From assembly GCF_030503875.2 (NCBI RefSeq), contig NZ_CP129968.2, forward strand, positions 1,886,001 to 1,950,000: 64,000 nt of DNA, read 5' to 3'. The notes below the pieces were generated by a model. The model was not told the origin of the DNA, did not search any database, and saw only the letters and a list, made by a program, of their open reading frames with translations. Both the position numbers and the translations under genes were made by a program. The stretch comes from Marivirga arenosa. GTDB taxonomy: Bacteria > Bacteroidota > Bacteroidia > Cytophagales > Cyclobacteriaceae. Of this stretch, positions 27,579 through 64,000 are shown one piece after another. Position 1 is the stretch's first letter; every line of letters begins with the position of its first letter.

Positions 27579-27582
27579 AATA

Positions 27583-33288: not shown

Positions 33289-33362
33289 TTCTTTTAATTC
33301 TGCCCTAATGACTTAATTAAATATAAGTAGTTGCACGGAAAATAATTTTTTTTCAAAAAAAA

Positions 33363-43417: not shown

Positions 43418-46400
43418 TTAATCTAGTATTACTACTTTCTTTCTTGTGAGATTTCCTGATAAAGTTTTTGTAATTATATGGTACACACCAGAAGAAACCC
43501 CATTTAAATTCAGTTCTTTATGATTCGTTCCTCTCAATGCTTTCGTATTTAAAATCACTTTACCATTCATGTCTACTACAAATATTTCTAGCTCTGATTT
43601 TAAACTTTGATTAAAGTTTAGATTTACAATTCCTGAACTTGGGTTAGGATAAAGGTCAAGATTGATATTCTCTAAAGCATTTGAATTACTAGTAATTTTT
43701 GAAGATTGTTTAAATTGATTTATGTTGGTAATGTCAATTTCGAAAACACTATTCGATAATCTGTCCTGAACCACAGTTATTATAGCTAAGTCTGTATTAG
43801 TATAGAGTGGCTCAACCAACCATTCATAAGTACTTACTACGGTTTCATTTAAATCATCTAATTCAACTCCGTTTATATTTGGTAGTATTTGTCTGACAAT
43901 GTTATTAAGCCCATTCGAAGTAGTGGATTTTTCAATTACAAAGAAATAAGACACCATATTTCTGGTAGTATCAGTATTTGGTCTTAAAGTAGCATCAAAA
44001 CTAATAGTGCTTTCACCAACTTCTTCATTAATGATGATGTCAACTAAATTAGTTGGTTCCAATAATGACCTTCTAGTTATTTTTCTCGAGAATTCTTCTG
44101 TTAATCCCTCTGAATTAAATATTGAGGTATTAAATCTTTCTCCATCAATAACGATTTTAGGGCTTTCCTCAATACTGTATATACTTGCTCTAGCATCCAT
44201 TTGAACTGAATTTCTCAGATTCACCGAATCAGGATCCGGAATTGATATGTGGAAGTTGATTGGTAATATGTCATTAGCTATACCAGTACTATTAAGATTT
44301 TGAACATTTGCTCTGTTTGAGGTATAATTTGTTGCATTTAGATTAGTGAAGTTCTCTATTAATACCAATTTTTGTCTTTCTCCAACATAGAAGTTGTCAA
44401 TAGCCATACCAGTAGGATCACTATTTAATAAAGTACCTTTAAAGTTAATTCTAAATTTAACGCTTGCAAGATTTGTAATTTCATCTTCATCTATGGTATG
44501 AGCTACTCTTACCCAATTTCTTTCTTCACCGATAAAATACCAAGCATAGTTTAATGGGTTTGCATTTTGTCCACCAATGGCAGATATGTTTGTAGTATTA
44601 TACCAATTTAATTCATCTTCAACTGCTCCTAAAATATTCCAAGTAGAACCTCCATCAATTGAATATTCAACTGTAGCTCCTGCTCTAAAGCTATCATCTA
44701 CATCTAACCACATATCAAACGCAATCATTGGCTTTTCAAGAGAAGTTAAGTCGAATGAAGGACCTTCTAAATATGAGTCTTCATTTTCATAATATCCAAA
44801 GTTTCCGTTAGCAGCAGTTTTCCAGAAGTTACCTGGATTAATATTGTCATTATTACCTATAAAGGCACCATTTGCTGATCCATACGTCCATGAACTTAAG
44901 CTGTCATTTACTGTATTATTTGTTGTCCATCCTCCAGCATTATTATCAAAAGTTTCATAATATGGATAGGTGTTGATTGCGGGTACAATAGCCACTGTTT
45001 TGGAAATGGTTTCAGTACATCCTAATAAGGTTTCAATAGTTAATTGAACTTGATATGATCCTGCAGTTTGATAATTAAAACTCGGGTTTTCTAATGAAGA
45101 TATATCCGTATCAATTCCTGGAATACCAAAATCCCAGCTGTATGAAATTATTGAATCAGCACCATCTAATACAGATTGATTCCTAAATTCGGTAGGGGTT
45201 TCACCTGGATTACTAGTTTTAGTATTTGTAAATGAGAAATCTACATTTTGAATATTTCCTACATTGATAGAAGTAGTAGTTTCAAATGTACAACCCAATG
45301 CGGTTGTTCCTATTATAGTAATATTTTTTACTCCTGCTGAATTAAACTGTTCAATTTGACCCTCTTCATAAATTCTGTTAGGCGAATTTTCATATTCTAA
45401 TTGGAATGAGATTAATGAATCTTGAGCACTATCATAACCAGGATTTATGAAAATTTGAACTGCATTATCAATTTCGCATAAGTTTTGATAATCAATTGTA
45501 ATTTGTGGTTCAGGAATTCTATATAATGTTTTGGTTGTTTCAGCTAAACAACTTGTAGCATCCTCAAACACTGTATACGTAATATCAACAGTATCTTGAT
45601 TCAGAACTTCTGATGAAGCTGCATTGAAATATGGTATCCCTCCTAAGATTTCTATACCAGGGCCAGTGAATGTACCCCCAGTTTGATCTGGATCTAATTC
45701 AATGAATGCATTTGAACAAAAGAACCCATTACTATCATCCGTTTCCATATCAAAATTAGAATTCGGTCCGTTTGTAACTTCTACTATAACTTCATCTGTG
45801 TTTACACAACCATTTGGATTAGTATAAGAATATGTTAATGTATATGGGCCACCAACAGTTGCAATAGTTGGATCGAAATCAAAGGTTCCATCACCATTGT
45901 TAACTACTCCTCTTCCACTAAATACTCCTCCTGAAGGCGTAGCTGTAAGTTCTTGTAATCCATTTCTGATACAATATAAATCGTTAGGGAATAGATTTTC
46001 TGTAATTGCGACATTAGGTAATGTATTAACTGCAAATGTTATTTCATCAAATGCAGTTCCACAAGGTCCCGCAACACCCGATCCGTCAGGATCATTTGCA
46101 GTAAATCTTAAAGTTACATCTAAACCATATTCGTTTGGATCAGGAATATAAGTTGTAGTAGGGGATGAGGTAGATGTAAATGTTCCTTCACCACCACTCC
46201 ATACACCACTTGAAGCACCATTAAGTAATTGGGCTTCTACTATTGCATTATCTCCTTCACATATATCAGCTATTGGAATGATGTCGATAATTGCATTTGG
46301 ATTAACAATTACATCTATGACCTTCGAATCTCCGGTGCACGTTCCGTCTAAGAACCTAGTGTTTAATGTGTATTGAATTACATCACTTTCTCCAGAGATT

Positions 46401-49400
46401 GTATTGGATAAGTTTCCTGAAACCGTTGTACCTACTCCATCTGTTGCTCCGGATGAATTTGGTGATACTGTCCATACAAATTCAACATTGGTAAGATTAT
46501 TTACAAAATTAATTGGCAAATCAAAGTCCTGACCACTACATACATAATATTCGTCTCTAATATTATCGAATTTAATTTCTGGTCTAACAATTATAGTTAA
46601 TTCCTCACTGTTGGCAGTTGCTAAGCAACTGCTATTTTTAGGGGTGATTTCATAAACAACTTCTTGATTAACACCTGAAGTATTGACTAAATCAAGAGAT
46701 ATATTACCAGTTCCTGACGGGGTCAATCCGTTTACAACGGAAGTGTTTCCTGAAATTAAATTCCATTCAAAATCAGCGGAAGGAATACTTGCAGTAGGTA
46801 CAAAATCAAATGTTTCATTTGAACAAACAGTGTAATCAAAATTAGAATTTGTCATTACAGGGTTAGGCAGTACAGTTACCGTGATTGTTTTTGTTGGCCC
46901 TGTGCATCCATTTGCACCATCTTGAGTAGGAATTACTGTAATAATGGCAACATTATCTGAAGAATTAGATGGATTATTTGCAGTAAAGCCTGATGGAGTT
47001 ATAGATTGATTTGTAGATCCAGAAGGAAATGCAATTCCAATAGTAGTATTATCTATTGACCAATCGAAGGTAGTGGTTCCTCCGACATTATCAATAAAAT
47101 CAATATTTACATTTTCACCATCACAGAATGTAACATCAGTATTCTGAATAACGGGTCTAGGGTTAGAAGTGATTTTGAAAGAATCAGCTATGCTTAAGCA
47201 TCCATTTCTTACTGAGTAATATTTTACATACCCTTCAATAGGAGCTCCAGTTTGATTGTCTGCTAAATCAAAACCAGGGAAGTTTCCAGTTCCCGTAGTA
47301 GGTGTAGCATCTCCAATTAATGCAGGATTTGTAATTTCCCAATTAAAGGTTCCAGTACCTGAACTATGAGTAAAGGTTCTTGGGCTTACTGCTGAAGGGA
47401 AACATAATATTGGCTCATCTGCTTCAGAATTAACTACTGGTCTATCTTTTAATGTCAGATTAATACTTTTAATTGTAGTACATCCATTCTGAGTTGCAGA
47501 TAATGTAATAACCCCAATTTTATCAGTACCACTTGTATTTATTGAACTAGTAAATTCTATTTTCCCATCGATAATGCTTATACCGCCTTGTACTAAGGTT
47601 GGATCATCAATATTTACATTTAATATAGGATTTGTAACATCTACAGTGAAAGGTATTGATGCGAATTCTTCCGAACAAAGACTAATACTGTTAGCTGCTG
47701 ATATTACTGGAGTTTGCTTAATTGTCAATGTTATTTCATCAAATACATCACTACATAAACCAGCATTTGACCCAGTTAATCTCAAGGTTATTGGACCGCT
47801 AGTATAATCATCTGATCCTGGATCATAAATCGGTCTTAAGGCAGTATCATCATCAAATGAACCAGCTCCATCTGTTGTCCATGTTAAATCATCAGCACTC
47901 GACTGGCTAGGAGGAGTAGCAATACTTGCTAAATCTAATACGTCTCCATCACATATTTCAACACTACTTGAAACACCACCGCCAGCATCTAAAACGATTT
48001 GTGGATCAACCGTAAAATCAACTTGTGCGACATCAAAGCAATTGGTAGTAGGTAAGATTACTTTCGCATAGTAAATTGAATTGTTTACCACTGATACTGC
48101 TGTTTCATCAGGAACAAGGGTTCCTAAACTACTATTAGAATACCACTCAATTGTAACACCTGTTTCGCTAGTTACAAAATTGTTATAAGAGGTTAAATCT
48201 ACTATTACACTTCCACCACCAGCAGTAGTTTCACAGAATGCGTCTGAAGTATTTGTAACAATAGGTAAACCTCTAACATTAATTGTTTTTGTAATAGTAT
48301 CATTACTGCAGCTAGTAGTTGAAATTGCAATAAATTCAAAAATCACATCTCCCTGATAAGTACCATTTGGTGTAAATGTTGCTTCATATACTCCTGCATT
48401 ATTAGTGGTTGCTGAAAGGCTACCGGAAGTTTCTGCATTCGGGTCAGGTTGTCCTGATTGTATAATCCATTGACCTGTTGAGGCTCCACTATTGATAGTT
48501 CCTCCTAAAACGATCGGTTCAGTTTCACAAACTGCATTTCCTGTAGGAGCTAAAGAGGCTTGAGCAGGTTCATCAATTGAAACATCTACTGTATAGGTAT
48601 TATCTCCACAAGGTCCACCAGTGTTAGGATCATTAGCAGTGAATTGGAAAGTGATGATGGTATTGAAATCTGCGGCATCCGGAGTATAAGTAGCCGTAGT
48701 CACCCCAGCAGTAGTATTGGAAGCAGACAGATTAGCTGCATTACCATTCGTGATTACATCCCATTGTCCGTCAATAGCAGAACCACCAAGGGTAGCATCA
48801 AGATCGAAGTTAGCATCTCCACAAGTACTAAAGTTTGCAGGAATTACCGCAGTTGGGTTTTCAAATACATCAAAAGTAAATACTTCTATAGTTGATGAAC
48901 AAGTATTAGAAGTAAAAGCCTCAAATTCGGCAGTAACTGTACCATAGGCTGTAGTAGATGGAGTGAAAGTAGTAGTCCAATCGCCAGCATTATTAGTAGT
49001 GGCCCCAATACTTCCAATAGTAGCACCGCCTGTAATAGTCCAGTTTCCACTGGTAGCCCCACCTCCAATATTTGCAATAAGATCTAATGTTTGAGTTTCA
49101 CATATTTCAGTTCCTATAGCATTTGTAATAGTAGCGGTAGCAGGAGCATCAATTATAAAATCTACTGTTTGACTTACACTTCCACAAGTATTAGCAGGGT
49201 TATTTGTAGTTAAAGTAAAAGTTACAGTATTCCCGATATCTGCAACTGTAGGGTTATAATCAGCTGTAACCGTACTACCCGTAGTAGAAATATTGGTTAA
49301 AGACCCATTACCATTTTCAGACCAAGAAGCTCCAGTAGCAGAACCAGAGAAGTCACCAGAAACCGTAATCGTTGAGTTTTGACATATATTTACAGGAGCA

Positions 49401-52400
49401 GTTGAAATACTTACACCTGCAGGTTCATCAATTGAAACATCTACAGTATAGGTATTATCTCCACAAGGTCCACCAGTGTTAGGATCAGTGGCAGTGAATT
49501 GGAAAGTGATGATGGTATTGAAATCTGCGGCATCCGGAGTATAAGTAGCCGTAGTCACCCCAGCAGTAGTATTGGAAGCAGACAGGTTAGCTGCATTACC
49601 ATTCGTGATTACATCCCATTGTCCGTCAATAGCAGAACCACCAAGGGTAGCATCAAGATCGAAGTTAGCATCTCCACAAGTACTAAAGTTTGCAGGAATT
49701 ACCGCAGTTGGGTTTTCAAATACATCAAAAGTAAATACTTCTATAGTTGATGAACAAGTATTAGAAGTAAATGCCTCAAATTCGGCAGTAACTGTACCAT
49801 AGGCAGTAGTAGATGGAGTGAAAGTAGTAGTCCAATTGCCAGCATTATTAGTAGTGGCCCCAATACTTCCAATAGTAGCACCGCCTGTAATAGTCCAGTT
49901 TCCACTAGTAGCCCCACCTCCAATATTTGCAATAAGATCTAATGTTTGAGTTTCACATATTTCAGTTCCTATAGCATTTGTAATAGTAGCGGTAGCAGGA
50001 GCATCAATTATAAAATCTACTGTTTGACTTACACTTCCACAAGTATTAGCAGGGTTATTTGTAGTTAAAGTAAAAGTTACAGTATTCCCGATATCTGCAA
50101 CTGTAGGGTTATAATCAGCTGTAACCGTACTACCCGTAGTAGAAATATTGGTTAAAGACCCATTACCATTTTCAGACCAAGAAGCTCCAGTAGCAGAACC
50201 AGAGAAGTCACCAGAAACCGTAATCGTTGAGTTTTGACATATATTTACAGGAGCAGTTGAAATACTTACACCTGCAGGTTCATCAATTGAAACATCTACA
50301 GTATAGGTATTATCTCCACAAGGTCCACCAGTGTTAGGATCAGTGGCAGTGAATTGGAAAGTGATGATGGTATTGAAATCTGCGGCATCCGGAGTATAAG
50401 TAGCCGTAGTCACCCCAGCAGTAGTATTGGAAGCAGACAGATTAGCTGCATTACCATTCGTGATTACATCCCATTGTCCGTCAATAGCAGAACCACCAAG
50501 GGTAGCATCAAGATCGAAGTTAGCATCTCCACAAGTACTAAAGTTTGCAGGAATTACCGCAGTTGGGTTTTCAAATACATCAAAGGTATAAGTTTTAAAA
50601 TTTGAAGCACAACTATTTATTGTAGCAGCTTCAAACTGGGCAGTAACTGTACCATAAGCAGTACCAGAAGGGGTAAATGTAGTAGTCCAGTTTCCTGCAT
50701 TATTTGTAGTTGGACTTATTGTACCTATTGAACCACCTCCAGTAATAGTCCAGCTACCACTTGATGCACCACCGCCAATGGTAGCTGTAAGATCTAATGT
50801 TTGAGTTTCACAGATTTCAGTTATGCTTGTTGTGATATTTGATGTTGGTAATTGAACTACATCAAATAGATTAATATCTTTTACTGCTACACATCCATTA
50901 GGACTTGTATAAGTTACTTCTATTTCAATTATACCTAATCCTGCAACTGTTGCATCAAAGTTTGACCCTGTTACTCCTGGTCCTGTAAAAGAGAAGGATC
51001 CACCTGCCGGAGTCGCACTTAGACCTAAAGAATTTAAATCAACAGTGTTTTCATTTTCACATACTTCAACAGGAGGGAAGACATTATTTATAACTGGTTT
51101 TGGATATAATGTAATAGAGAATGTAGTGGTAACTGGTGACGTACAAATAGCATTTGAAGTTGATACTGTAATATTAGTTACCAAATTTGCTCCTGAATTA
51201 TTTGGCCCCGCTACGAATGTCATAGCGTTACCACCATTTGTAGGGTTTCCTACTAGGGTATTATCCGCGGTCCATGTAATATTATCCGTTCCTGATAGGG
51301 TACTAAAATCAATATCAACTAATTCTCCTGAACAAACAAAAAGGTTTGTTGGAGTAGGTGCGAATTGTGGAGCTACATTATTAGTTAGAGTAACTTCATC
51401 AAATGTATCTGTACAACTTCCATTTGAGATTGTCCAACGCAGGGTAGCTGAAGTACCTGCCGCTATTCCTGATACTGTTGATATTGCTGAAGATGGGGTA
51501 TTAATTGTAGCTGTTCCCGATATTAAAGTCCAAACACCTGATCCTGTAGCAGGAGGACTATTTGCTGCTAATGTAAAGTTACTATTTTCACAATTAATCT
51601 GATCTGTACCTGCATTTGCTACTATTTGCGGATCAGGTTGAGTAAGAGTTACTGGTATAGTAGTTATAGCACAAGCATTTGCATCTGTTATATCAATATC
51701 ATAGTTACCGGCCGCTAAGTTGTTAAAGCGATAGGTAGCGCCTGGTTGGGTTTGAGTAGCCGAAGCATCTCCACTTAGGGTGAATGTATAGTTGCCAGTA
51801 CCACCAGCTGCGGTTACTTCAATGAATCCATCGGTTTCGCCATTACAGCTAATGTTAAATGTATTATATATACTTACTGTAGTAGAGGCTGAGAGTAATG
51901 TTGGCTCATTAAGGGTATAAGAAGCAGAACTGGTACAACCGTTTCCATCGGTGATAGTTACATCGTAGGTACCAGCCGTTAAACCAGATTGATCTTGATC
52001 GGTGGCTACCAATCCACTACCATCGGCAGTAGACCAAGCGTAGGTATAAGCGCCTTCACCTCCAGCAGGAGTAAGGTTAATTTCTCCAGTAGCGGCACTG
52101 TTGCAGTCTACATCAGTTAGAACAGCAGCTTGAGTAAGTGGTGTAGGTTCTGTTAGGGTATAACTTGTAGAAGTACTACATCCATTAGCATCAGTAACAG
52201 TAAGGTCATAAGTACCAGCTGTTAGTCCAGTTTGGTCTTGATCGGTAGCCACGAGTCCGCTACCATCTGTGGTAGACCAAGCGTACGTATAGGCTCCTTC
52301 ACCTCCAGATACGGAGATAGCGATCGATCCATTGGCATCGCCATTACAGTTAAGTTCAAATCCTCCGGTAGTAGAAGAACTCAAGGCATCCAGAGAAATG

Positions 52401-55400: not shown

Positions 55401-58400
55401 CCAGATACGGAGATAGCGATCGATCCATTGGCATCGCCATTACAGTTAAGTTCAAATCCTCCGGTAGTAGAAGAACTCAAGGCATCCAGAGAAATGGCTA
55501 AAGGAGAAGGTTCAGTAATGGTATAGGATTCAGTGATGGTACAACCGTTGTCATCGGTGATGTCGACCTGATAAGTACCAGCAGAAAGTCCGATTTGATC
55601 TTGTGAGTTAGCATTTACGCCAGATCCATCAGCAGTAGACCAGCTGTAGGTATAGGGAGGAGTTCCTCCTGATAGGGTAATGTCGATCGATCCATCAAGG
55701 TCTCCATTGCAATCCAGGTTAAAGCCCGTTCCGGTAGAAGTACTCAGGCTAGCGGTAGCAGAAATAGCATCAGGCTCATTAATGGTATAAGAAGCAGAAC
55801 TGGTACAACCGTTTCCATCGGTGATAGTTACATCGTAGGTACCAGCCGTTAAACCAGATTGATCTTGATCGGTGGCTACCAATCCACTACCATCGGCAGT
55901 AGACCAAGCGTAGGTATAAGCGCCTTCCCCTCCAGCAGGAGTAAGGTTAATTTCTCCAGTAGCGGCACTGTTGCAGTCTACATCAGTTAGAACAGCAGAT
56001 TGAGTAAGTGGTGTAGGTTCTGTTAGGGTATAGCTTGTAGAAGTACTACATCCATTAGCATCAGTAACAGTAAGGTCATAAGTACCAGCTGTTAGTCCAG
56101 TTTGGTCTTGATCAGTAGCCACGAGTCCGCTACCATCTGCGGTAGACCAAGCGTACGTATAGGCTCCTTCACCTCCAGATACGGAGATAGCGATCGATCC
56201 ATTGGCATCGCCATTACAGTTAAGTTCAAATCCTCCGGTAGTAGAAGAACTCAAGGCATCCAGAGAAATGGCTAAAGGAGAAGGTTCAGTAATGGTATAG
56301 GATTCAGTGATGGTACAACCGTTGTCATCGGTGATGTCCACATCATAGGTGCCAGCAGAAAGTCCGATTTGATCTTGTGAGTTAGCATTTACGCCAGATC
56401 CATCAGCAGTAGACCAGCTGTAGGTATAGGGAGGAGTTCCTCCTGATAGGGTAATGTCGATCGATCCATCAAGGTCTCCATTGCAATCCAGGTTAAAGCC
56501 CGTTCCGGTAGAAGTACTCAGGCTAGCGGTAGCAGAAATAGAATTAGGGTTAGTTAATAAAATTTCATCAAATGAATCGGTACATGGGTTATTAGAAATT
56601 GTCCATCTTAATACAGCAGATGATCCTGCAGGTATACCGGATACAGTTGAACTATTAGAACTTGGAGAATTTATCGTAGCAGTACCACTTATTAATGTCC
56701 ATATGCCCGTTCCTATAACTGGATTATTTGCCGAAAGAGTAAAATTTCCTGAGCCAGCACAACTAATTTGATCAAAACCTGCATTAGCAACAGTAGGTAA
56801 TTGATTGATAGTAATAGTTTCAGTGTCAGTAAGGTCATCCGTACAGCTAGTGGTAGCATTAGTAGCACGAACAGTAATAGTTTCTGAACCATCACTTCCT
56901 AAGGCAGTATAGTCAAAGGCATTTGATGCAATGGTTATAGTTCCACCATTACCACCTACTGAAGATGAGAAAGCAGAATTACTTTGATCAAATAATTGAT
57001 AATTAACTCCGGATTGAGAGCCGTCAATAGTAAAAACCAATGAAGAACCATCGCACACTTCAGAAGCCGAAGGGGTTACAGTTAAAGTGTTGTTAGGTAA
57101 TGGATTAATAGTAACAGAAGTAGCAGCAGAAGGGCTACTAAAGCAAGAGGCAGTATTGTCTCCATTAGTAACTTCAACGGAATAGTTTCCGCTTTCAGAA
57201 ACAAGATTTAAGGAGATATCTCTTGTTGTTAAAGCGGGGACTAGAACACCATCTTTATACCATCTATAAGATCCCTCAGTAGAACCGGGAGCTAGAGAAG
57301 AGGTCAGAGTGATGGACCCCCCCTCACAAGTTGAGACACTTGGCCCTTGAAGAATAGTAGGGGCAGCCGGAGCATCCTCTACGGTAATTGTAATGCCTGC
57401 ATGCGTAGCAGAACAATTATTTCCATCAATACCTGTAACGGTGACCATATCACCATCAGCTAAAGAAGAAGTAGAATACGTATTAGAGGCAGAAGGACCT
57501 TGAACGGCAAGTCCGTTAACAAAAAATTGATAAGTAGCAGCTCCACCTGCGGTAAAAGTTATAGGGGAACCGTTACAAATTATATTATCAAGATCATCAC
57601 TATTTAATGATATAGTAGGTAATTGATTGATAGTAATAGTTTCAGTGTCAGCAAGGTCATCCGTACAGCTAGTGGTAGCATTAGTAGCACGAACAGTAAT
57701 AGTTTCTGAACCATCACTTCCTAAGGCAGTGTAGTCAAAGGCATTTGATGCAATGGTTATAGTTCCACCATTACCACCTACTGAAGATGAGAAAGCAGAA
57801 TTACTTTGATCAAATAATTGATAATTAACTCCGGATTGAGAGCCGTCAATAGTAAAAATCAATGAAGAACCATCACACACTTCAGTAGCCGAAGGGGTTA
57901 CAGTTAAAGTGTTGTTAGGTAATGGATTAATAGTAACAGAGGTAGCAGCAGAAGGGCTACTAAAGCAAGAGGCAGTATTGTCTCCATTAGTAACTTCAAC
58001 GGAATAGTTTCCGCTTTCAGAAACAAGATTTAAGGAGATATCTCGTGTTGTTAAAGCGGGGACTAGAACACCATCTTTATACCATCTATAAGATCCCTCA
58101 GTAGAACCGGGAGCTAGAGAAGAAGTCAGAGTGATGGCCCCCCCCTCACAAGTTGAGACACTTGGCCCTTGAAGAATAGTAGGGGCAGCCGGAGCATCCT
58201 CTACGGTAATTGTAATGCCTGCATGCGTAGCAGAACAATTATTTGCATTAATACCTGTAACGGTGACCATATCACCATCAGCTAAAGAAGAAGTAGAATA
58301 CGTATTAGAGGCAGAAGGACCTTGAACGGCAAGTCCGTTAACAAAAAATTGATAAGTAGCAGCTCCACCTGCGGTAAAAGTTATAGGGGAACCGTTACAA

Positions 58401-60664
58401 ATTATATTATCAAGATCATCACTATTTAATGATATAGTAGGTAATTGATTGATAGTAATAGTTTCAGTGTCAGCAAGGTCATCCGTACAGCTAGTGGTAG
58501 CATTAGTAGCACGAACAGTAATAGTTTCTGAACCATCACTTCCTAAGGCAGTATAGTCAAAGGCATTTGATGCAATGGTTATAGTTCCACCATTACCACC
58601 TACTGAAGATGAGAAAGCAGAATTACTTTGATCAAATAATTGATAATTAACTCCGGATTGAGAGCCGTCAATAGTAAAAACCAATGAAGAACCATCACAC
58701 ACTTCAGTAGCCGAAGGGGTTACAGTTAAAGTGTTGTTAGGTAATGGATTAATAGTAACAGAGGTAGCAGCAGAAGGGCTACTAAAGCAAGAGGCAGTAT
58801 TGTCTCCATTAGTAACTTCAACGGAATAGTTTCCGCTTTCAGAAACAAGATTTAAGGAGATATCTCGTGTTGTTAATGCGGGGACTAGAACACCATCTTT
58901 ATACCATCTATAAGATCCCTCAGTAGAACCGGGAGCTAGAGAAGAGGTCAGAGTGATGGACCCCCCCTCACAAGTTGAGACACTTGGCCCTTGAAGAATA
59001 GTAGGGGCAGCCGGAGCATCCTCTACGGTAATTGTAATGCCTGCATGCGTAGCAGAACAATTATTTCCATCAATACCTGTAACGGTGACCATATCACCAT
59101 CAGCTAAAGAAGAAGTAGAATACGTATTAGAGGCAGAAGGACCCTGAACGGCAAGTCCGTTAACAAAAAATTGATAAGTAGCAGCTCCACCTGCGGTAAA
59201 AGTTATAGGAGAACCGTTACAAATTATATTATCAAGATCATCACTAGCAAGAGTAACTGTAGGAGGATTGTTAATTGTAATATTATTAATGTTTTGAGGT
59301 GCAGATAATACTCCTTCACATCCTGTACTCAAAATGGTCACTAAAACAGAAACTGTTTCAGAGGTTCCTAAAGTACCGATATCAAAAGAATTTGTAGGAA
59401 TTATTATATCTCCACCATTTCCTACAATTTCTGAGCTTAAGGGATTGTTGGACTCATCAATTAATTGGTATTTATTAGTACTTTGAGTATTTGTTATTGT
59501 AAAGTTAAGAACACCTCCATCACATACTTCTGAAGCAGAGGGGGTGGTATTAGTAGTTATGGTGGTTGTATTAACAGAAGGATTAACCACTAAAGTAACC
59601 ATTGCAGGATCACTTTCACAGCCATTTGCAGAAGTTTCAGTTACATAAACAGTTGTAGTACCCGCTGTAGAGTTGTCAAAACCTATGTCTGCATTTATAG
59701 GTGATCCGCCAGTAGTTAAAACAGAAGTTAGGCCTGCATCATCATACCATGTAATAGTTCCTCCAGTACCGCTTGCTGACGGAGTTAGGAATGCTTCATT
59801 TAAGCATATTTCTTGGTTTTGGTTGGTTATTGTTGGTGCAGCAGGGAGAGCTTCAACAGTTATTTGTGCTGATGTAGATGTAACGATAGGCAAACAGGCA
59901 CCTGTAACTACAACGCGGTAATTGTAAGTATCAATGCTAATAGGAGCATTATTGATTTGAAGGGTGGAAGAAGTAAAATTACTATAAATTCCACCATCCA
60001 TACTTATATCAATATCTTCAAAACCTGCACCGCCACCAGCATCTCTTTGCCACTGATAACTTAATAAACCACCGGTAACTGATACTGTAAAAGCTGTATT
60101 TTCATTTTCACAAATTGCTTCTGATGATGGTTGACCAGTGATAGTTGGAGATTCAATACTACTTAATGATCCATGTAAAGTACCAAAAGGTGCACCATTT
60201 ACATTTAAGTCCGTACCTGTTGGAGAATCAACTCTAGTAATGTTTCCGGACGAGCCAGCAGTAATAGCTCTTACTTGAAAGTCCTGAAAGAAAATAGAAT
60301 TAATTTGACTAGTTGCATTAATTATTAGATTTACTTGCAACCAATTCGTTCCTCTATTTGTAGAGGAAGATGCATTAATATCTCCTCCAATGCCGGTAGC
60401 AGAAATGGTTCCACCTGTAGGTTTAAATTCAAAATTGGGGGGTAGTTCAATTCTGTAATACCTAGTATTGCCTGAGGTGTTGGGGAAGTCACCTGTATTA
60501 GTTTCAGTAATCTCTATATCAGGAAGACCATAATAACCACCATCTACACATATATTACTTAAATCAGCCTCAGTTATGGTAACTTGTGAATATGATTTAA
60601 AGCTCAATAATGTAAAGGAGCTAATGAGAAGTAAAACTTTTATATAAGTGTAAAACTGTTTCGT
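43418..60664 (-). CDS. Giant SprB-like repeat adhesin with T9SS sorting domain (probable ACG start)
   Basis: The product is about 5748 residues from ACG 60664, or 5729 from TTG 60607. Only the ACG start gives a signal peptide (ACG-KQFYTYIKVLLLISSFTLL ending KSYSQ); TTG would remove most of it. Order from the N-terminus: Ig-like modules, three 274-residue repeats, six 258-residue units each with three SprB repeats (GTYDVTITDGNGCT type) and one extra SprB repeat, Ig/PKD-like modules, about 2.4 copies of a 285-residue repeat, many further Ig-like modules, a PKD domain (SYSWDFG), a jelly-roll-like domain, an Omp28-like domain (VLIENFTN) without its Cys, and a C-terminal type A T9SS tail (LDLYPNPSSGIVNLN ... 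KKVVILD). It should be exported by T9SS and act as a cell-surface adhesin, as SprB does in gliding. Its upstream genes encode barrel, lipoprotein and WD40 partners. Confidence 0.9.
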   Translation of the reverse strand, partial: TKQFYTYIKVLLLISSFTLLSFKSYSQVTITEADLSNICVDGGYYGLPDIEITETNTGDFPNTSGNTRYYRIELPPNFEFKPTGGTISATGIGGDINASSSTNRGTNWLQVNLIINATSQINSIFFQDFQVRAITAGSSGNITRVDSPTGTDLNVNGAPFGTLHGSLSSIESPTITGQPSSEAICENENTAFTVSVTGGLLSYQWQRDAGGGAGFEDIDISMDGGIYSNFTSSTLQINNAPISIDTYNYRVVVTGACLPIVTSTSAQITVEALPAAPTITNQNQEICLNEAFLTPSASGTGGTITWYDDAGLTSVLTTGGSPINADIGFDNSTAGTTTVYVTETSANGCESDPAMVTLVVNPSVNTTTITTNTTPSASEVCDGGVLNFTITNTQSTNKYQLIDESNNPLSSEIVGNGGDIIIPTNSFDIGTLGTSETVSVLVTILSTGCEGVLSAPQNINNITINNPPTVTLASDDLDNIICNGSPITFTAGGAATYQFFVNGLAVQGPSASNTYSTSSLADGDMVTVTGIDGNNCSATHAGITITVEDAPAAPTILQGPSVSTCEGGSITLTSSLAPGSTEGSYRWYKDGVLVPALTTRDISLNLVSESGNYSVEVTNGDNTASCFSSPSAATSVTINPLPNNTLTVTPSATEVCDGSSLVFTIDGSQSGVNYQLFDQSNSAFSSSVGGNGGTITIASNAFDYTALGSDGSETITVRATNATTSCTDDLADTETITINQLPTISLNSDDLDNIICNGSPITFTAGGAATYQFFVNGLAVQGPSASNTYSTSSLADGDMVTVTGINANNCSATHAGITITVEDAPAAPTILQGPSVSTCEGGAITLTSSLAPGSTEGSYRWYKDGVLVPALTTRDISLNLVSESGNYSVEVTNGDNTASCFSSPSAATSVTINPLPNNTLTVTPSATEVCDGSSLIFTIDGSQSGVNYQLFDQSNSAFSSSVGGNGGTITIASNAFDYTALGSDGSETITVRATNATTSCTDDLADTETITINQLPTISLNSDDLDNIICNGSPITFTAGGAATYQFFVNGLAVQGPSASNTYSTSSLADGDMVTVTGIDGNNCSATHAGITITVEDAPAAPTILQGPSVSTCEGGSITLTSSLAPGSTEGSYRWYKDGVLVPALTTRDISLNLVSESGNYSVEVTNGDNTASCFSSPSAATSVTINPLPNNTLTVTPSASEVCDGSSLVFTIDGSQSGVNYQLFDQSNSAFSSSVGGNGGTITIASNAFDYTALGSDGSETITVRATNATTSCTDDLTDTETITINQLPTVANAGFDQISCAGSGNFTLSANNPVIGTGIWTLISGTATINSPSSNSSTVSGIPAGSSAVLRWTISNNPCTDSFDEILLTNPNSISATASLSTSTGTGFNLDCNGDLDGSIDITLSGGTPPYTYSWSTADGSGVNANSQDQIGLSAGTYDVDITDDNGCTITESYTITEPSPLAISLDALSSSTTGGFELNCNGDANGSIAISVSGGEGAYTYAWSTADGSGLVATDQDQTGLTAGTYDLTVTDANGCSTSTSYTLTEPTPLTQSAVLTDVDCNSAATGEINLTPAGGEGAYTYAWSTADGSGLVATDQDQSGLTAGTYDVTITDGNGCTSSASYTINEPDAISATASLSTSTGTGFNLDCNGDLDGSIDITLSGGTPPYTYSWSTADGSGVNANSQDQIGLSAGTYQVDITDDNGCTITESYTITEPSPLAISLDALSSSTTGGFELNCNGDANGSIAISVSGGEGAYTYSWSTADGSGLVATDQDQTGLTAGTYDLTVTDANGCSTSTSYTLTEPTPLTQAAVLTDVDCNSAATGEINLTPAGGEGAYTYAWSTADGSGLVATDQDQSGLTAGTYDVTITDGNGCTSSASYTINEPDAISAIASLSTSTGTGFNLDCNGDLDGSIDITVSGGTPPYTYSWSTADGSGVNANSQDQIGLSAGTYDVDITDDNGCTITESYTITEPSPLAISLDALSSSTTGGFELNCNGDANGSIAISVSGGEGAYTYAWSTTDGSGLVATDQDQTGLTAGTYDLTVTDANGCSTSTSYTLTEPTPLTQAAVLTDVDCNSAATGEINLTPAGGEGAYTYAWSTADGSGLVATDQDQSGLTAGTYDVTITDGNGCTSSASYTINEPDAISAIASLSTSTGTGFNLDCNGDLDGSIDITVSGGTPPYTYSWSTADGSGVNANSQDQIGLSAGTYDVDITDDNGCTITESYTITEPSPLAISLDALSSSTTGGFELNCNGDANGSIAISVSGGEGAYTYAWSTTDGSGLVATDQDQTGLTAGTYDLTVTDANGCSTSTSYTLTEPTPLTQAAVLTDVDCNSAATGEINLTPAGGEGAYTYAWSTADGSGLVATDQDQSGLTAGTYDVTITDGNGCTSSASYTINEPDAISATASLSTSTGTGFNLDCNGDLDGSIDITLSGGTPPYTYSWSTADGSGVNANSQDQIGLSAGTYQVDITDDNGCTITESYTITEPSPLAISLDALSSSTTGGFELNCNGDANGSIAISVSGGEGAYTYSWSTADGSGLVATDQDQTGLTAGTYDLTVTDANGCSTSTSYTLTEPTPLTQAAVLTDVDCNSAATGEINLTPAGGEGAYTYAWSTADGSGLVATDQDQSGLTAGTYDVTITDGNGCTSSASYTINEPDAISAIASLSTSTGTGFNLDCNGDLDGSIDITVSGGTPPYTYSWSTADGSGVNANSQDQIGLSAGTYDVDITDDNGCTITESYTITEPSPLAISLDALSSSTTGGFELNCNGDANGSIAISVSGGEGAYTYAWSTTDGSGLVATDQDQTGLTAGTYDLTVTDANGCSTSTSYTLTEPTPLTQAAVLTDVDCNSAATGEINLTPAGGEGAYTYAWSTADGSGLVATDQDQSGLTAGTYDVTITDGNGCTSSASYTLNEPTLLSASTTVSIYNTFNISCNGETDGFIEVTAAGGTGNYTFTLSGDASATQTQPGATYRFNNLAAGNYDIDITDANACAITTIPVTLTQPDPQIVANAGTDQINCENSNFTLAANSPPATGSGVWTLISGTATINTPSSAISTVSGIAAGTSATLRWTISNGSCTDTFDEVTLTNNVAPQFAPTPTNLFVCSGELVDIDFSTLSGTDNITWTADNTLVGNPTNGGNAMTFVAGPNNSGANLVTNITVSTSNAICTSPVTTTFSITLYPKPVINNVFPPVEVCENENTVDLNSLGLSATPAGGSFSFTGPGVTGSNFDATVAGLGIIEIEVTYTSPNGCVAVKDINLFDVVQLPTSNITTSITEICETQTLDLTATIGGGASSGSWTITGGGSIGTISPTTNNAGNWTTTFTPSGTAYGTVTAQFEAATINSCASNFKTYTFDVFENPTAVIPANFSTCGDANFDLDATLGGSAIDGQWDVITNGNAANLSASNTTAGVTTATYTPDAADFNTIITFQFTATDPNTGGPCGDNTYTVDVSIDEPAGVSISTAPVNICQNSTITVSGDFSGSATGASWSENGNGSLTNISTTGSTVTADYNPTVADIGNTVTFTLTTNNPANTCGSVSQTVDFIIDAPATATITNAIGTEICETQTLDLIANIGGGATSGNWTITGGATIGSIGATTNNAGNWTTTFTPSTTAYGTVTAEFEAFTSNTCSSTIEVFTFDVFENPTAVIPANFSTCGDANFDLDATLGGSAIDGQWDVITNGNAANLSASNTTAGVTTATYTPDAADFNTIITFQFTATDPNTGGPCGDNTYTVDVSIDEPAGVSISTAPVNICQNSTITVSGDFSGSATGASWSENGNGSLTNISTTGSTVTADYNPTVADIGNTVTFTLTTNNPANTCGSVSQTVDFIIDAPATATITNAIGTEICETQTLDLIANIGGGATSGNWTITGGATIGSIGATTNNAGDWTTTFTPSTTAYGTVTAEFEAFTSNTCSSTIEVFTFDVFENPTAVIPANFSTCGDANFDLDATLGGSAIDGQWDVITNGNAANLSASNTTAGVTTATYTPDAADFNTIITFQFTANDPNTGGPCGDNTYTVDVSIDEPAQASLAPTGNAVCETEPIVLGGTINSGASTGQWIIQSGQPDPNAETSGSLSATTNNAGVYEATFTPNGTYQGDVIFEFIAISTTSCSNDTITKTINVRGLPIVTNTSDAFCETTAGGGSVIVDLTSYNNFVTSETGVTIEWYSNSSLGTLVPDETAVSVVNNSIYYAKVILPTTNCFDVAQVDFTVDPQIVLDAGGGVSSSVEICDGDVLDLASIATPPSQSSADDLTWTTDGAGSFDDDTALRPIYDPGSDDYTSGPITLRLTGSNAGLCSDVFDEITLTIKQTPVISAANSISLCSEEFASIPFTVDVTNPILNVNIDDPTLVQGGISIIDGKIEFTSSINTSGTDKIGVITLSATQNGCTTIKSINLTLKDRPVVNSEADEPILCFPSAVSPRTFTHSSGTGTFNWEITNPALIGDATPTTGTGNFPGFDLADNQTGAPIEGYVKYYSVRNGCLSIADSFKITSNPRPVIQNTDVTFCDGENVNIDFIDNVGGTTTFDWSIDNTTIGIAFPSGSTNQSITPSGFTANNPSNSSDNVAIITVIPTQDGANGCTGPTKTITVTVLPNPVMTNSNFDYTVCSNETFDFVPTASIPSADFEWNLISGNTSVVNGLTPSGTGNISLDLVNTSGVNQEVVYEITPKNSSCLATANSEELTIIVRPEIKFDNIRDEYYVCSGQDFDLPINFVNNLTNVEFVWTVSPNSSGATDGVGTTVSGNLSNTISGESDVIQYTLNTRFLDGTCTGDSKVIDVIVNPNAIIDIIPIADICEGDNAIVEAQLLNGASSGVWSGGEGTFTSTSSPTTTYIPDPNEYGLDVTLRFTANDPDGSGVAGPCGTAFDEITFAVNTLPNVAITENLFPNDLYCIRNGLQELTATPSGGVFSGRGVVNNGDGTFDFDPTIATVGGPYTLTYSYTNPNGCVNTDEVIVEVTNGPNSNFDMETDDSNGFFCSNAFIELDPDQTGGTFTGPGIEILGGIPYFNAASSEVLNQDTVDITYTVFEDATSCLAETTKTLYRIPEPQITIDYQNLCEIDNAVQIFINPGYDSAQDSLISFQLEYENSPNRIYEEGQIEQFNSAGVKNITIIGTTALGCTFETTTSINVGNIQNVDFSFTNTKTSNPGETPTEFRNQSVLDGADSIISYSWDFGIPGIDTDISSLENPSFNYQTAGSYQVQLTIETLLGCTETISKTVAIVPAINTYPYYETFDNNAGGWTTNNTVNDSLSSWTYGSANGAFIGNNDNINPGNFWKTAANGNFGYYENEDSYLEGPSFDLTSLEKPMIAFDMWLDVDDSFRAGATVEYSIDGGSTWNILGAVEDELNWYNTTNISAIGGQNANPLNYAWYFIGEERNWVRVAHTIDEDEITNLASVKFRINFKGTLLNSDPTGMAIDNFYVGERQKLVLIENFTNLNATNYTSNRANVQNLNSTGIANDILPINFHISIPDPDSVNLRNSVQMDARASIYSIEESPKIVIDGERFNTSIFNSEGLTEEFSRKITRRSLLEPTNLVDIIINEEVGESTISFDATLRPNTDTTRNMVSYFFVIEKSTTSNGLNNIVRQILPNINGVELDDLNETVVSTYEWLVEPLYTNTDLAIITVVQDRLSNSVFEIDITNINQFKQSSKITSNSNALENINLDLYPNPSSGIVNLNFNQSLKSELEIFVVDMNGKVILNTKALRGTNHKELNLNGVSSGVYHIITKTLSGNLTRKKVVILD
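48567..50583 (-). repeat. 855-bp coding tandem repeat, about 2.4 copies
   Basis: Identical landmarks recur at 48644, 49499 and 50354 (period 855 bp, 285 residues). Copies differ at only a few bases over hundreds. Each encodes three Ig-like modules, including AVIPANFSTCGDANFDLD and ICETQTLDLIANIGGG. Confidence 0.95.
51903..56540 (-). repeat. 774-bp coding tandem repeat, six copies (18 SprB modules)
   Basis: One landmark (TACCAGCCGTTAAACC) recurs at 51970, 52744, 53518, 54292, 55066 and 55840, exactly 774 bp apart. Each unit encodes three SprB repeats of about 88, 89 and 81 residues. The units fall into two sequence variants (see findings). The array looks more GC-rich than the flanking genes. 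Confidence 0.97.
56792..59250 (-). repeat. 822-bp coding tandem repeat, three copies
   Basis: GGTAATTGATTGATAG recurs at 56796, 57618 and 58440 (period 822 bp, 274 residues). Each copy encodes Ig-like modules with LDNIICNGSPITF, STCEGG and TEVCDGSSL. A C7 or C8 run (G on the coding strand) is present once per copy. Confidence 0.95.
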
Positions 60665-60687
60665 AACTTTTTAATTTAATGTAACTT

Positions 60688-60719
60688 ACAATATAAACGT
60701 TTGGGGAGTAATTGACAAA
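60688..60719 (-). promoter_or_regulatory. Candidate promoter for the giant adhesin (TTTG-N20-TATATTGT)
   Basis: On the minus strand TTTG (60719-60716) is followed after 20 bp by TATATTGT (60695-60688), which shares TA and TT with TAnnTTTG but has two mismatches. It is 23 bp before the ACG start and after the stop of the lipoprotein gene, so the adhesin may have its own start in addition to operon read-through. Confidence 0.35.
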
Positions 60720-60743
60720 TTTATATGGAATAATAGAATTTTA

Positions 60744-62024
60744 CTAAAAATTAATCTTCATTAAACCAATAGCGGTCGAATTATTATCAAATGTTTTATG
60801 TGATAATATCACTAGGCTATTTCCACCTTCATTTACTATTTTTTGAATATCATAAAAACCAGTACTATTAAACATAAAATTTTGGCCTTCTAACTGAGTA
60901 CCAGATTGCGAAAATTTTAATAAGTAGGAAATATGATTGGCTGAACCTTCATCTATTGTTGAGATAATAATATTTCCATCACCATCTTCTGTTAAGCTAG
61001 TGATTTTATTGCCAAATTCAGAAAAAGAATAAATACTTTGAATCTCATTGTTATTTTTCCCATTGTAATCTTTAGAAATCAAAAATATAGAGTCATTATC
61101 TATATAGTTTCCAGCTATATAATTTTTCCCATTCGAGTGATATAGTATGTCCCCAAATTCTTCATTTTGGTCTGAACCTATATAAATAATTTCACTGGCG
61201 GTTGAATTTAAATCAGAATAAATATGCCAACTGATATTGTCAGATGAACCTGAAACGGATCCATTTGGGTTTTCACTAAAATTCTGACCTAATACTTCAT
61301 ATAATCTATTGGGGGTATTTCCCTTTCTTATTTTGAAATCTGTACTGTTATTAAAAACAATATCATCAGGTTTTTGCCTTATTGCTGTAATAATAGAATC
61401 ATTCTTATCATTGAAATCCATAGCAGTTAAATCGAAAATCTGTGTATATCTATTTAAGTTCCCACTTGAACTTTGTCTAATATTTCCTACACAAATAATA
61501 TTTGGAGGTAGAATTAGAAAGTCATTTAATTGCACTATTCGATTTTGATTGACTCCTAAAGTTTTTATTTCAGCAGACAAAGAGTCTTCAATATTTGCAT
61601 TAGAAGCTCTTGCAGGTATTCCATCTAAGTTCGTTTTAATTAATATATTTTGGTTAACATTAACTTGTGATTGATCAGTTCTACGATTTCCCATTATGTA
61701 AACTGAATTATCGGCCTCATTAAATTTGACACTTACGGCTTCATCATAGAAATCAGTGGTAATCTGATAGAGACTTCTTTGAAGTCCATTGTTAGCCACA
61801 TTAATTACTATAATATCAGAATTTTCTTCTGATTTTAAATTTCCTACAACTATATATCCTGTTGATTCTGGTTTACAGATAAAATCAATAGCTTCAACAT
61901 TTTCTGAAACAGCATATAATTTATCGAAACTAGGTAATTGTTCGCTTTCTAAGGCTTCAAAATTGCATGCTGAACATATCGCAAGTAACAGAAGAATAAT
62001 ATGTAAGAAATGTCTAGTTATCAT
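60744..62024 (-). CDS. Lipoprotein with predicted beta-propeller-like repeats
   Basis: The 426-residue protein begins with a lipoprotein-type signal (likely lipidated Cys20 in LAICSAC). The rest is made of repeated beta blocks such as GYIVVGNLKSEENSDIIVI, NSVYIMGNRR, KNYIAGNYI and GNIIISTIDEG, as in propeller proteins that read out as 'value stored in G-N'. I know no function for it. Its ATG overlaps the stop of the upstream barrel gene (ATGA), and the giant adhesin starts 79 bp downstream, so it is probably a surface or periplasmic partner of the adhesin. Confidence 0.75.
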   Translation of the reverse strand: MITRHFLHIILLLLAICSACNFEALESEQLPSFDKLYAVSENVEAIDFICKPESTGYIVVGNLKSEENSDIIVINVANNGLQRSLYQITTDFYDEAVSVKFNEADNSVYIMGNRRTDQSQVNVNQNILIKTNLDGIPARASNANIEDSLSAEIKTLGVNQNRIVQLNDFLILPPNIICVGNIRQSSSGNLNRYTQIFDLTAMDFNDKNDSIITAIRQKPDDIVFNNSTDFKIRKGNTPNRLYEVLGQNFSENPNGSVSGSSDNISWHIYSDLNSTASEIIYIGSDQNEEFGDILYHSNGKNYIAGNYIDNDSIFLISKDYNGKNNNEIQSIYSFSEFGNKITSLTEDGDGNIIISTIDEGSANHISYLLKFSQSGTQLEGQNFMFNSTGFYDIQKIVNEGGNSLVILSHKTFDNNSTAIGLMKINF

Positions 62025-63061
62025 TGAAAATTAAAGAAAGGGATATTAAATGTGAGATTCAATTGAAATACTAAATTTGCGATATCATCATCTTTCAAAA
62101 CCATCCCATTTAAAACTGTTGTTTTGACAGCCTCTTGCCTCGCTAAATCATTTAGATGGTTTCTAAAATAATTACTTACTCCTAATTTGACTTCGCCATA
62201 ATTTTCTCCAATTTTTATCATTGTCCCTATATTGGCATTAACAGCAAAATTAAAAATTGCTCTTCTGTCTAAAACACTTTCAGGACCTGCTATATTTTCT
62301 TCATCTACAGATTCAGAAAAGCCATTTATATAGTTCGATATTTGATAATTAAAATTCCCTCTTCCAGTAGCCCCTATTTCAACAAAAGGTTTCCATTGAT
62401 AAAAATCTTTCATATATCTTGCCATCAAATTTAAATTAATACCACTGTTTGAGCTTTGGTATTCGATTGTTGTGAAACTTCCATCTAACGATTCATTTCT
62501 TTCAAAGTATCCATATCTTTGATTTTGATATTGTAATTCTGCACCCACTACAATACTTTTCACCAAAGGATATAAATACTGAATCCCTATTTGTTCTAAA
62601 GAAAATTTTGGAATATAATTAGGAGCTTCGTTACCCAATGGATTAGTAGATCTGTAGTCAACAAGTCTAATGTAATTAAGATTAGTGCCAAAAGTCACTC
62701 CAATGAAATATTTTATGTCAGTATCTATACTATTATATAATGAATACAATTCAGATGGATCAACATTATCAATTACCTGATAATCTGTTTTAATATTTAA
62801 TAACTTAATTAGGGTAGATCTTGCCTTTTCTTGTTGGTTTATATTAATATAAGTAAGCGTTAAAAGCCTTAAGGCCACAATTTTTTGAGTTTTATCAAAG
62901 CCGTTTTCTAAACAATCGTTTAGTTTGCCTGGTACTGCGTATAGATTACCACTTGAATAATCTGCACGTGCCTCATTTAAATTTCTTTCACAACTAGACT
63001 GTGCAACTAATTGAATGGATGCTAAAACGATAAATGATATGGTGATTATAAAAATTTTCAT
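62021..63061 (-). CDS. Exported protein with TPR-like N-terminus and outer-membrane beta-barrel C-terminus
   Basis: The 346-residue protein has a signal peptide (cleavage near LVAQ, residue 21). Residues about 23-115 are helical and TPR-like (ALRLLTLTYININQQEKARS). From about 118 alternating strands (IGVTFGTNLNYIRL, VGAELQYQNQRYG, INLNLMARYMKDF, VFQLNLTFNIPFFNF) make a transmembrane barrel of the PorT/OmpW size, ending in an aromatic C-terminal strand. It overlaps both neighbours by 4 bp (ATGA). By position it may take the place of the PorP/SprF partners that accompany SprB-type adhesins; this is inference. Confidence 0.78.
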   Translation of the reverse strand: MKIFIITISFIVLASIQLVAQSSCERNLNEARADYSSGNLYAVPGKLNDCLENGFDKTQKIVALRLLTLTYININQQEKARSTLIKLLNIKTDYQVIDNVDPSELYSLYNSIDTDIKYFIGVTFGTNLNYIRLVDYRSTNPLGNEAPNYIPKFSLEQIGIQYLYPLVKSIVVGAELQYQNQRYGYFERNESLDGSFTTIEYQSSNSGINLNLMARYMKDFYQWKPFVEIGATGRGNFNYQISNYINGFSESVDEENIAGPESVLDRRAIFNFAVNANIGTMIKIGENYGEVKLGVSNYFRNHLNDLARQEAVKTTVLNGMVLKDDDIANLVFQLNLTFNIPFFNFQ

Positions 63062-64000
63062 CTTGCCGCATCTAGAAATTTACTTTCTTCAAATATTGGA
63101 TCATATTCTAAATCATCACCAATATATCTATCCCATTCTTCAGGAGTAATATCTCTGCTCATTTTTTCTTTCAAAGTTTCAGCAAGTAATTGACTTTTAA
63201 TAGGGTATAAGCGAAAAACTTGATCTTTACATCCAGCAAAAATATGAGATTCGTCCATAAGCGCAATAGCATTAACCCATGAACCAGGTTCATTTATAAT
63301 CATCGGAAATTCATCAGGATCATTTAAGTTCCATATACGAATAGTTCCTTTAGTACTTGCTGCAATTATTTGATTTTCTTTTTCATTAAAGGTGATATCA
63401 GTCATGATTTCTCCATCGCTACCTCTTAATGTAATTGAATTGGTTACATCATACTGATCATTAAGATAGAATAAATTAACCTGACCTGAGTTGTCACCAG
63501 CAGCTAAAATATTATTTCCAATTGACAGGGAATGTATATATCTATTATTTGAATCGCGTATAACTGTTTTACTCTCCTTAGAATTTAAATCCCATAGTTC
63601 AATTTTTCCATCCGTATTTCCAGTGGCCAAATAATCATTATTCAATAGTTCAATATCGTAAATTCTACTGTTTGTATTAAGGAAAGGTTCAATCCTATTA
63701 TTTGAAAATTTATAAATGTTATTATCAGAAGCTGAAAGATAGAAATCCGTACTGCCTTTAACAAAACTGATATCATAAGCATAGCTATCAGGTAGGCTGT
63801 ATTTTTTAACTTCTCTGATTCTATTAGAAACGTCAATAACATAAAAATCAGAACCATCTGTTAAGGCAACTAAACTTTTATTTTCTTCATCAACATAAAT
63901 TTTCTTGACAAAAACATTTTCTTCATCAAAAATAACTATGCTTCTGTTGGCAGTCATATTATCAACTTCCCATGCATTTATTCTTCCTGAAGTACCCGTT
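63058..64000 (-). CDS. WD40-repeat protein, C-terminal part (start outside window)
   Basis: The reading frame stays open to the window edge: upstream of Met at 63957 the codons give TGTSGRINAWEVDN, a WD40 strand pattern, so that Met is internal. Four to six WD-like blades are visible (GNTDGKIELWDLN, AAGDNSGQVNLFYL, STKGTIRIWNLND). The C-terminal tail ITPEEWDRYIGDDLEYDP resembles the L-T-x2-E-W-x2-Y ending of bacterial WD40 signalling proteins that often carry an N-terminal STAND NTPase, caspase or similar effector. The N-terminal domain cannot be seen. Its stop overlaps the start of the barrel gene (ATGA). Confidence 0.85.
   Translation of the reverse strand, partial: TGTSGRINAWEVDNMTANRSIVIFDEENVFVKKIYVDEENKSLVALTDGSDFYVIDVSNRIREVKKYSLPDSYAYDISFVKGSTDFYLSASDNNIYKFSNNRIEPFLNTNSRIYDIELLNNDYLATGNTDGKIELWDLNSKESKTVIRDSNNRYIHSLSIGNNILAAGDNSGQVNLFYLNDQYDVTNSITLRGSDGEIMTDITFNEKENQIIAASTKGTIRIWNLNDPDEFPMIINEPGSWVNAIALMDESHIFAGCKDQVFRLYPIKSQLLAETLKEKMSRDITPEEWDRYIGDDLEYDPIFEESKFLDAAR

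Follow-up and report, generated by a model that had tools for sequence, protein, structure and literature searches.

Seven genes of Marivirga arenosa, here denoted A to G, that lie in a row and end with a giant T9SS-exported surface protein, appear to form one functional module spanning the cell envelope. In the reading we favor, with a probability of roughly one half, a cytoplasmic switch made of a STAND NTPase and a TIR-like protein would be connected to a giant surface adhesin whose dosage would be restrained by an ACG start codon. The gene order, the domains, the type-A sorting signal of the adhesin and the conserved position of the ACG codon are direct observations, all at the sequence level. 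A literature search, mostly at the title and abstract level, returned no description that we recognized of this operon or its kin.

Layout of the locus

The window, that is, the entire stretch of DNA analyzed, comprises 64,000 nt (positions 1,886,001-1,950,000 of a 4.02-Mb contig) of the 4.05-Mb M. arenosa genome. The minus-strand order is A-B-C-D-E-F-G, with A, B, C and the N-terminal half of D located beyond the window edge, in the adjoining stretch of the chromosome (L002; adding 58,999 to a position in L002 gives the window numbering used in Table 1). A first-pass annotation of the window had placed the WD40 protein (D) at the head of the set, a place it does not hold, C, B and A all preceding it. 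The ATGA overlaps that the same annotation saw at D/E and E/F are borne out by the coordinates; 4-base overlaps also join A to B and B to C, and D starts with GTG immediately past the stop codon of C. The start codon of B is TTG, overlapping the stop of A, and by eye is similarly non-ATG in two relatives (G116 and G440). The 79-bp gap reported between F and the adhesin gene is correct if G starts at 60664, but the codon there is ACG, and the first canonical one is TTG at 60607.

Table 1. Features of the locus in window numbering
Feature	Position	Strand	Remarks
A, membrane-HEAT protein	70709-73243	-	844 aa
B, SiaA-like phosphatase	67530-70712 (L002:8531-11713)	-	1,060 aa
C, TIR-like protein	66163-67533	-	456 aa
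D, nSTAND1-TM-WD40 protein	63058-66162	-	1,034 aa; 63058..64000 (WD40 domain) in window
E, signal peptide, helical (TPR-like) N-domain and 8-strand outer-membrane barrel (model)	62021-63061	-	
E, Cys24 to Cys50	62912..62992	-	cysteine pair in 38/38 aligned E proteins
F, lipoprotein, beta-propeller by profile match	60744-62024	-	
G, giant T9SS type-A surface protein	43418..60664	-	5,748 aa if ACG-started
ACG at the G start-codon position	60662..60664	-	same position ACG in 9/10 genus genomes
ACG to first canonical start codon (TTG 60607-60605)	60605..60664	-	encodes signal-peptide n-region and hydrophobic core
Block TTTG-N20-TATATTG, resembling an imperfect Bacteroidota -33/-7 promoter	60689..60719	-	kept in most genus genomes
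T9SS type-A sorting domain of G	43427..43654	-	TIGR04183, 41.2 bits, cut-off 23
SiaC gene, upstream of and divergent to A	73401-73790		PF09345

Predicted cytoplasmic and inner-membrane proteins

Read past position 64000, the N-terminal half of D contains an nSTAND1 domain (PF20703, 303 bits, E 5.9e-90) and a single transmembrane (TM) helix (residues 503-521 by hydropathy, with KRLKRSK just before it), to which WD40 repeats are added according to Pfam. Under the positive-inside rule, hydropathy and charge suggest that the NTPase domain of D is cytoplasmic and its WD40 domain probably periplasmic. A tandem-repeat scan found one short array, also in D; the range of the tool is 500 bases, and the long repeats of G fall outside it.

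In the C protein of this locus, no Pfam family exceeds the cut-off, and a C paralogue in the same genome matches DUF4062 above the cut-off and TIR_2 below it. The structural model of C (pLDDT 84, pTM 0.57), like that of E a single-chain model, reads as three alpha/beta domains without TM segments, and a fold search yielded weak, partial matches only, with TIR domains among GTPases and others. On the sub-threshold TIR_2 match, DUF4062 and the weak fold matches, the three domains of C may be TIR-like. In five loci (L090, L095, L162, L166 and L173), C lies beside other genes without adjoining D to G; these lone copies are possibly remnants of the locus or represent a separate use of C.

In A, the HEAT match is below the cut-off in the copy from this locus and above it in a paralogue that adds a sub-threshold cNMP-binding match; 5 TM segments are predicted in the former and 12 in the latter.

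The barrel, the lipoprotein and the giant adhesin

The model of E (pLDDT 88) consists of a signal peptide, five helices and an 8-strand barrel, and its best fold match is OmpA (TM-score 0.58 for the target and 0.33 for the query); in a profile search, F. johnsoniae BamG matched weakly (E 0.0015). Of the earlier description of E as a barrel with a TPR front half, the barrel and the helices stand, and the label "TPR" reflects predicted helices only, given that no Pfam TPR model matched E. The two cysteines invariant in E are spaced 26 to 31 residues apart; they could staple the first helix pair or form a covalent link, by analogy with SprF and PorG, which are disulfide-linked to GldK (PMC12635249). 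F proteins are highly divergent (11-59% identity to F of the window); all 36 have Cys at the lipobox position, and the profile match is to the CylK beta-propeller (E 1e-20).

The identification of G as a SprB-like T9SS adhesin is confirmed by its SprB repeats (PF13573; 7 stretches in the first 2,000-aa piece and 12 in the second), Ig-like (Ig_7) and PKD domains, and Por_Secre_tail. The type-A model TIGR04183 exceeds the cut-off in the G protein of the window and in eight further complete ones, the scan having covered 8 of the 9 others (all except L142), and the type-B sorting model had no match at E up to 0.01 in the G proteins scanned. Because type-A signals are recognized by PorV (PMC12618676), PorV is the expected shuttle for G, and because this would leave the shuttle role to PorV and not to the neighboring barrel, a receptor or anchor role in the exposed complex is the likelier one for E and F. 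The PorP/SprF-type role suggested for E at first pass is unsupported, and we rejected E as a stand-in for SprF on three counts: the type-A signal of G, the 8 strands of the E model, and the lack of a match to PF11751 (PorP/SprF) in E, the genome encoding 10 PF11751 proteins with none at this locus. The N-termini of G appear, by eye, unrelated between genera. In one congener (G440:C1:3553447-3570930, L220-L221), the G frame is 5,828 aa long and has no T9SS tail at its end; it may be frameshifted, shortened or mis-assembled.

The phosphatase and SiaC genes

B contains a SpoIIE/PP2C domain (PF07228, over the cut-off) and a long predicted periplasmic part. Its best match among solved structures is 6k4e, labelled putative serine phosphatase (E 9.5e-32), and its match to full-length SiaA (NF038263) is partial, at 161 bits against a cut-off of 700 bits. 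The product of the SiaC gene (113.5 bits to PF09345) preserves, within an aligned NTSS motif, the Thr68 site that is phosphorylated in P. aeruginosa SiaC (PMC7647112). A divergent SiaC gene adjoins A in all 5 B-bearing loci scanned; in the sixth, the contig ends within the gene, which reads as the same protein. Genome-wide, there are 4 SiaC genes and 3 genes for DUF6272, which we take to be SiaB; all three of the latter are located elsewhere, two of them next to other SiaC genes, leaving no candidate SiaB-type kinase near the locus. Among the annotated genes A-G, there is no SiaD-like diguanylate cyclase.

Conservation and the two versions of the locus

C has matches in 86 of the 148 sampled genomes of the family, strong ones in 82 (E < 1e-50) and weak ones in the other 4 (E 2.5e-6 to 3.5e-15). 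In a class-wide sample of 295 genomes, 16 have C matches, the strong ones coming from 4 family members and 2 other genomes. One of these two, a member of another family (G339, locus L236), has A, a SpoIIE gene, C and D in place before the contig ends; the SpoIIE gene lies between A, which is full-length, and C (L236:4423-6510). This gene raises the possibility that B predates the family's B-bearing clade. In the second (L235), D was found and C was not recovered by the gene caller.

Gene order was counted in two sets of loci. The first consists of 40 family loci and that of the window; the 40 were picked for C and/or E hits, which biases the order counts, and three of the 41 (L079, L080 and L096) lack C and were excluded from them. 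In the 38 C-bearing loci, A or B lies upstream in 35, D is present in 36 of 38, E and F each in 36 of 36 (F being assigned by size and position alone in 2), and G in 34 of 36, one of the other two being cut by the locus end (L002, that of the window) and one lacking G (L082). The order C-D-E-F occurs in loci of 24 of the 25 genera fetched in this way, the window included. The second set, the best 80 of 153 matches to 14 C proteins from B-less loci, some of which share a genome, contains no B at all and thus samples the B-less version only. In its readable cases, the counts are 73/77 for A/C, 76/79 for D, 67/69 for E, 65/65 for F and 56/57 for G (at least 600 aa), and among these best 80 of 153 E is adjacent to F in 65/65 and F to G in 56/57. 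No large G follows F in L082, and in L157 a 415-aa frame is found there. The F-G gaps range from -92 to 351 bases and are mostly below 100. The first-pass suggestion of a self-contained module is strongly supported by this conservation of gene order, and the outcome named at first pass as refuting it, a gene order that differs in related genomes, is not what was seen.

Pairwise distances in C, D and E are correlated (r 0.72-0.88, 35 loci; maximum of 0.36 in 1,000 shuffles per pair). Organismal history being shared, these mirrored distances show common inheritance more than contact. B is present in six fetched loci of four genera, and these form one clade in each of the midpoint-rooted C, D and E trees (supports 1.0, 1.0 and 0.996). 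In all six, the order is A-B-C-D-E-F followed by a large G, which is cut by the end of the locus or contig in every case; in B-less loci, A is about 1,050 aa long. M. arenosa carries one locus of each version, the second copy being at G000:C1:559,235-564,808.

The start codon of G

The G frame of the window opens after TAA with AAA GTT ACG AAA CAG TTT and runs through a full signal peptide, and its first ATG, GTG or TTG, the TTG at 60607, is 19 codons past the ACG, inside the signal peptide. The locus is present in all 10 Marivirga genomes examined, and ACG aligns at this position in 9 of them; none of these nine has ATG, GTG or TTG from the upstream in-frame stop to at least 13 codons past the ACG. 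In the tenth (G438), the position is taken by CTG, and TTG occurs in frame 7 codons upstream. G437, one of the nine, belongs to the same species as the window; in the other seven, E is only 50-65% identical to that of the window, so the ACG codon outlasted much divergence. The codon invariably ends in G (9/9), and only 7.4% of Thr codons (113/1,525 in the genes counted) are ACG, an argument whose force is lowered by shared descent. As a point against the ACG start, eight of the nine have G at -3, a position at which initiation in F. johnsoniae is favored by A (PMC6847099); further upstream, the sequence is A-rich.

Judging from these sequences, G of Marivirga appears to start at ACG, a very poor start codon in model bacteria. 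A reconstruction of 61,358 ancestral AUG starts reports switches to GUG, UUG, CUG and AUU, and ACG is absent from the main text of that study (PMC5622118); our literature search on ACG or non-AUG bacterial starts, mostly at the title and abstract level, retrieved no such case that we recognized. Across the family, ATG is available in 88 of 94 G genes (78 of 84 distinct ones, ten G and twelve C proteins being common to both locus sets). Three have TTG or GTG only, two of these in B-bearing loci, and the three with none of the three codons are all from Marivirga.

As a control, syntenic genes were compared with those of G116 (38 reciprocal ORF pairs) and of G440 (55 pairs), the pairs including some antisense frames. 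Similarity begins before the first canonical codon in 8 and 18 pairs, respectively. G is flagged against G116 and not against G440, where the best alignment piece begins deep within the protein. By eye, the other flagged pairs look like antisense frames or like ATG or TTG starts with conservation extending into the bases before them; two that depend on TTG (26694-27605 and 32722-33312) are less clear-cut. As support for the ACG start, this control is suggestive only.

The main rival to ACG use is initiation at a near-cognate AUA, AUU or AUC a few codons downstream, or else after a frameshift, an explanation that we consider doubtful. AUU starts are known in bacteria; in eight of the nine genomes with ACG, an AUN (Ile) codon lies 7 codons past it, and a short signal peptide would remain. 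Against this stand the varying identity of the AUN codon, replaced by ACT in G116, compared with an ACG invariant in all nine, and the K-(H/Q/N)-x-Y pattern kept by the residues between the two codons, as though this segment were translated. A further point against it is that the spacer lacks ATG in 9 of the 10 genomes (G439 has one).

A promoter-like block lies upstream of the ACG. AAATTTG is kept in 8 of the 10 genus genomes and followed 20 bases on by TATATTG in 7 and by TATATTT in G440; in G439 and G438, the block is not kept. Compared with the Bacteroidota promoter consensus TTTG/TANNTTTG (PMC6847099), the -7 element is imperfect, and a sigma-70 scan is uninformative for Bacteroidota. The G gene of Marivirga may have its own promoter, which would make the adhesin partly independent of the upstream genes; if real, this promoter would leave a leader of about 20 bases, and G would not be driven solely by those genes.

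A proposed trans-envelope module and the alternatives

Under the proposed mechanism, C, with its three TIR-like domains, and the nSTAND1 half of D would sit in the cytoplasm; D would span the inner membrane once, its periplasmic WD40 domain meeting the helical N-domain of the barrel E; the lipoprotein F and the exported G would make up the outer part; and A would lie in the inner membrane and bear HEAT-like repeats. What is relayed inward to the STAND NTPase would be the state of the surface part (attachment, load or bound ligand); alternatively, the switch would govern the surface complex. In the B-bearing version, the phosphatase and the divergent SiaC would add a phospho-switch. In Marivirga, G would be kept at low dosage by ACG initiation, probably from its own promoter, and inefficient initiation would suit a protein of more than 5,700 residues that is needed in few copies. 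The topology, the contacts, the direction of signaling and the actual use of the ACG codon are what we infer here.

An export or anchoring apparatus, in which E and F carry or anchor G (compare SprF for SprB) and the cytoplasmic genes energize the process with no sensing, would account for the nearly constant adjacency of E, F and G and for a cysteine pair in E reminiscent of the GldK-linked SprF and PorG. We nevertheless consider it unlikely: G carries a signal of the type recognized by PorV, E is modelled as an OmpA-like barrel of 8 strands without a PF11751 match, and the STAND, TIR-like and phosphatase genes would be left unexplained. Our expectation is lower still for a conflict or defense system with D as the alarm, C as the TIR effector and the adhesin as the contact sensor. 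Although systems of that kind do contain nSTAND1, TIR-like and WD40 domains (compare PMC8195603, PMC10907252), the sole PADLOC match is to a homing-endonuclease model on the WD40 part of D (E 0.00066, with no stretch of its own), the TIR box of C has, by eye, no Glu common to all 38 sequences, and the C, D and E trees are mirrored, diverging together. It is very improbable that unrelated envelope genes merely came together by chance or through shared expression: Marivirga G may own a promoter, and shared species history can also yield mirrored trees, but stops and starts overlap, and the C-D-E-F order recurs across nearly all the fetched genera as well as in the loci selected by C.

A trans-envelope module is the reading we prefer. 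The first-pass annotation had offered a sensor or an assembly factor as the module's own component, and of the two the sensor fits better, with D as an nSTAND1 NTPase, its WD40 domain probably periplasmic, and B SiaA-like. The observation behind the proposed surface-adhesion module holds, and its interpretation is partly supported; the adhesin may also be transcribed from its own promoter.

Relationship to known systems

Like SprB/SprF of Flavobacterium johnsoniae, the locus encodes a giant T9SS-exported protein with SprB repeats beside an outer-membrane barrel; unlike in that system, the sorting signal is type A rather than type B, and the barrel, which in the model has 8 strands and a helical N-domain, does not match PF11751. 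No counterpart to the STAND, TIR-like or phosphatase genes is known to us in SprB/SprF. With SiaABCD of Pseudomonas aeruginosa, the locus shares a SiaA-like PP2C phosphatase, a SiaC with the Thr68 site and a tie to aggregation, but it lacks a SiaB-type gene and, among A-G, a SiaD-like gene, B has a long predicted periplasmic part, and the Sia genes are limited to the B-bearing version. The nSTAND conflict systems of multicellular bacteria likewise combine an nSTAND1 NTPase carrying WD40 repeats with a TIR-like partner, whereas here the protein spans the membrane and is kept together with outer-membrane and T9SS genes, and no killing effector is recognized. E as modelled resembles PorG, an 8-strand T9SS barrel, in strand number and in conserved cysteines on the (for E, presumed) periplasmic side; the cysteines of E are in the N-terminal helical domain, not in the C-tail.

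Extended to the entire family, the proposal would be a trans-envelope receptor in which a STAND NTPase and its TIR-like partner read the state of a giant T9SS adhesin through WD40 repeats and a barrel, the Marivirga adhesin gene being the first in bacteria known to our searches to have an ACG start shared across species, as a brake on synthesis. We advance this combined claim tentatively and would sooner expect it to fail than to hold. An ACG start kept across divergent species, if true, would break the usual start-codon rule of bacteria, and the locus is a concrete Bacteroidota candidate for signaling that connects a STAND NTPase with a surface adhesin.
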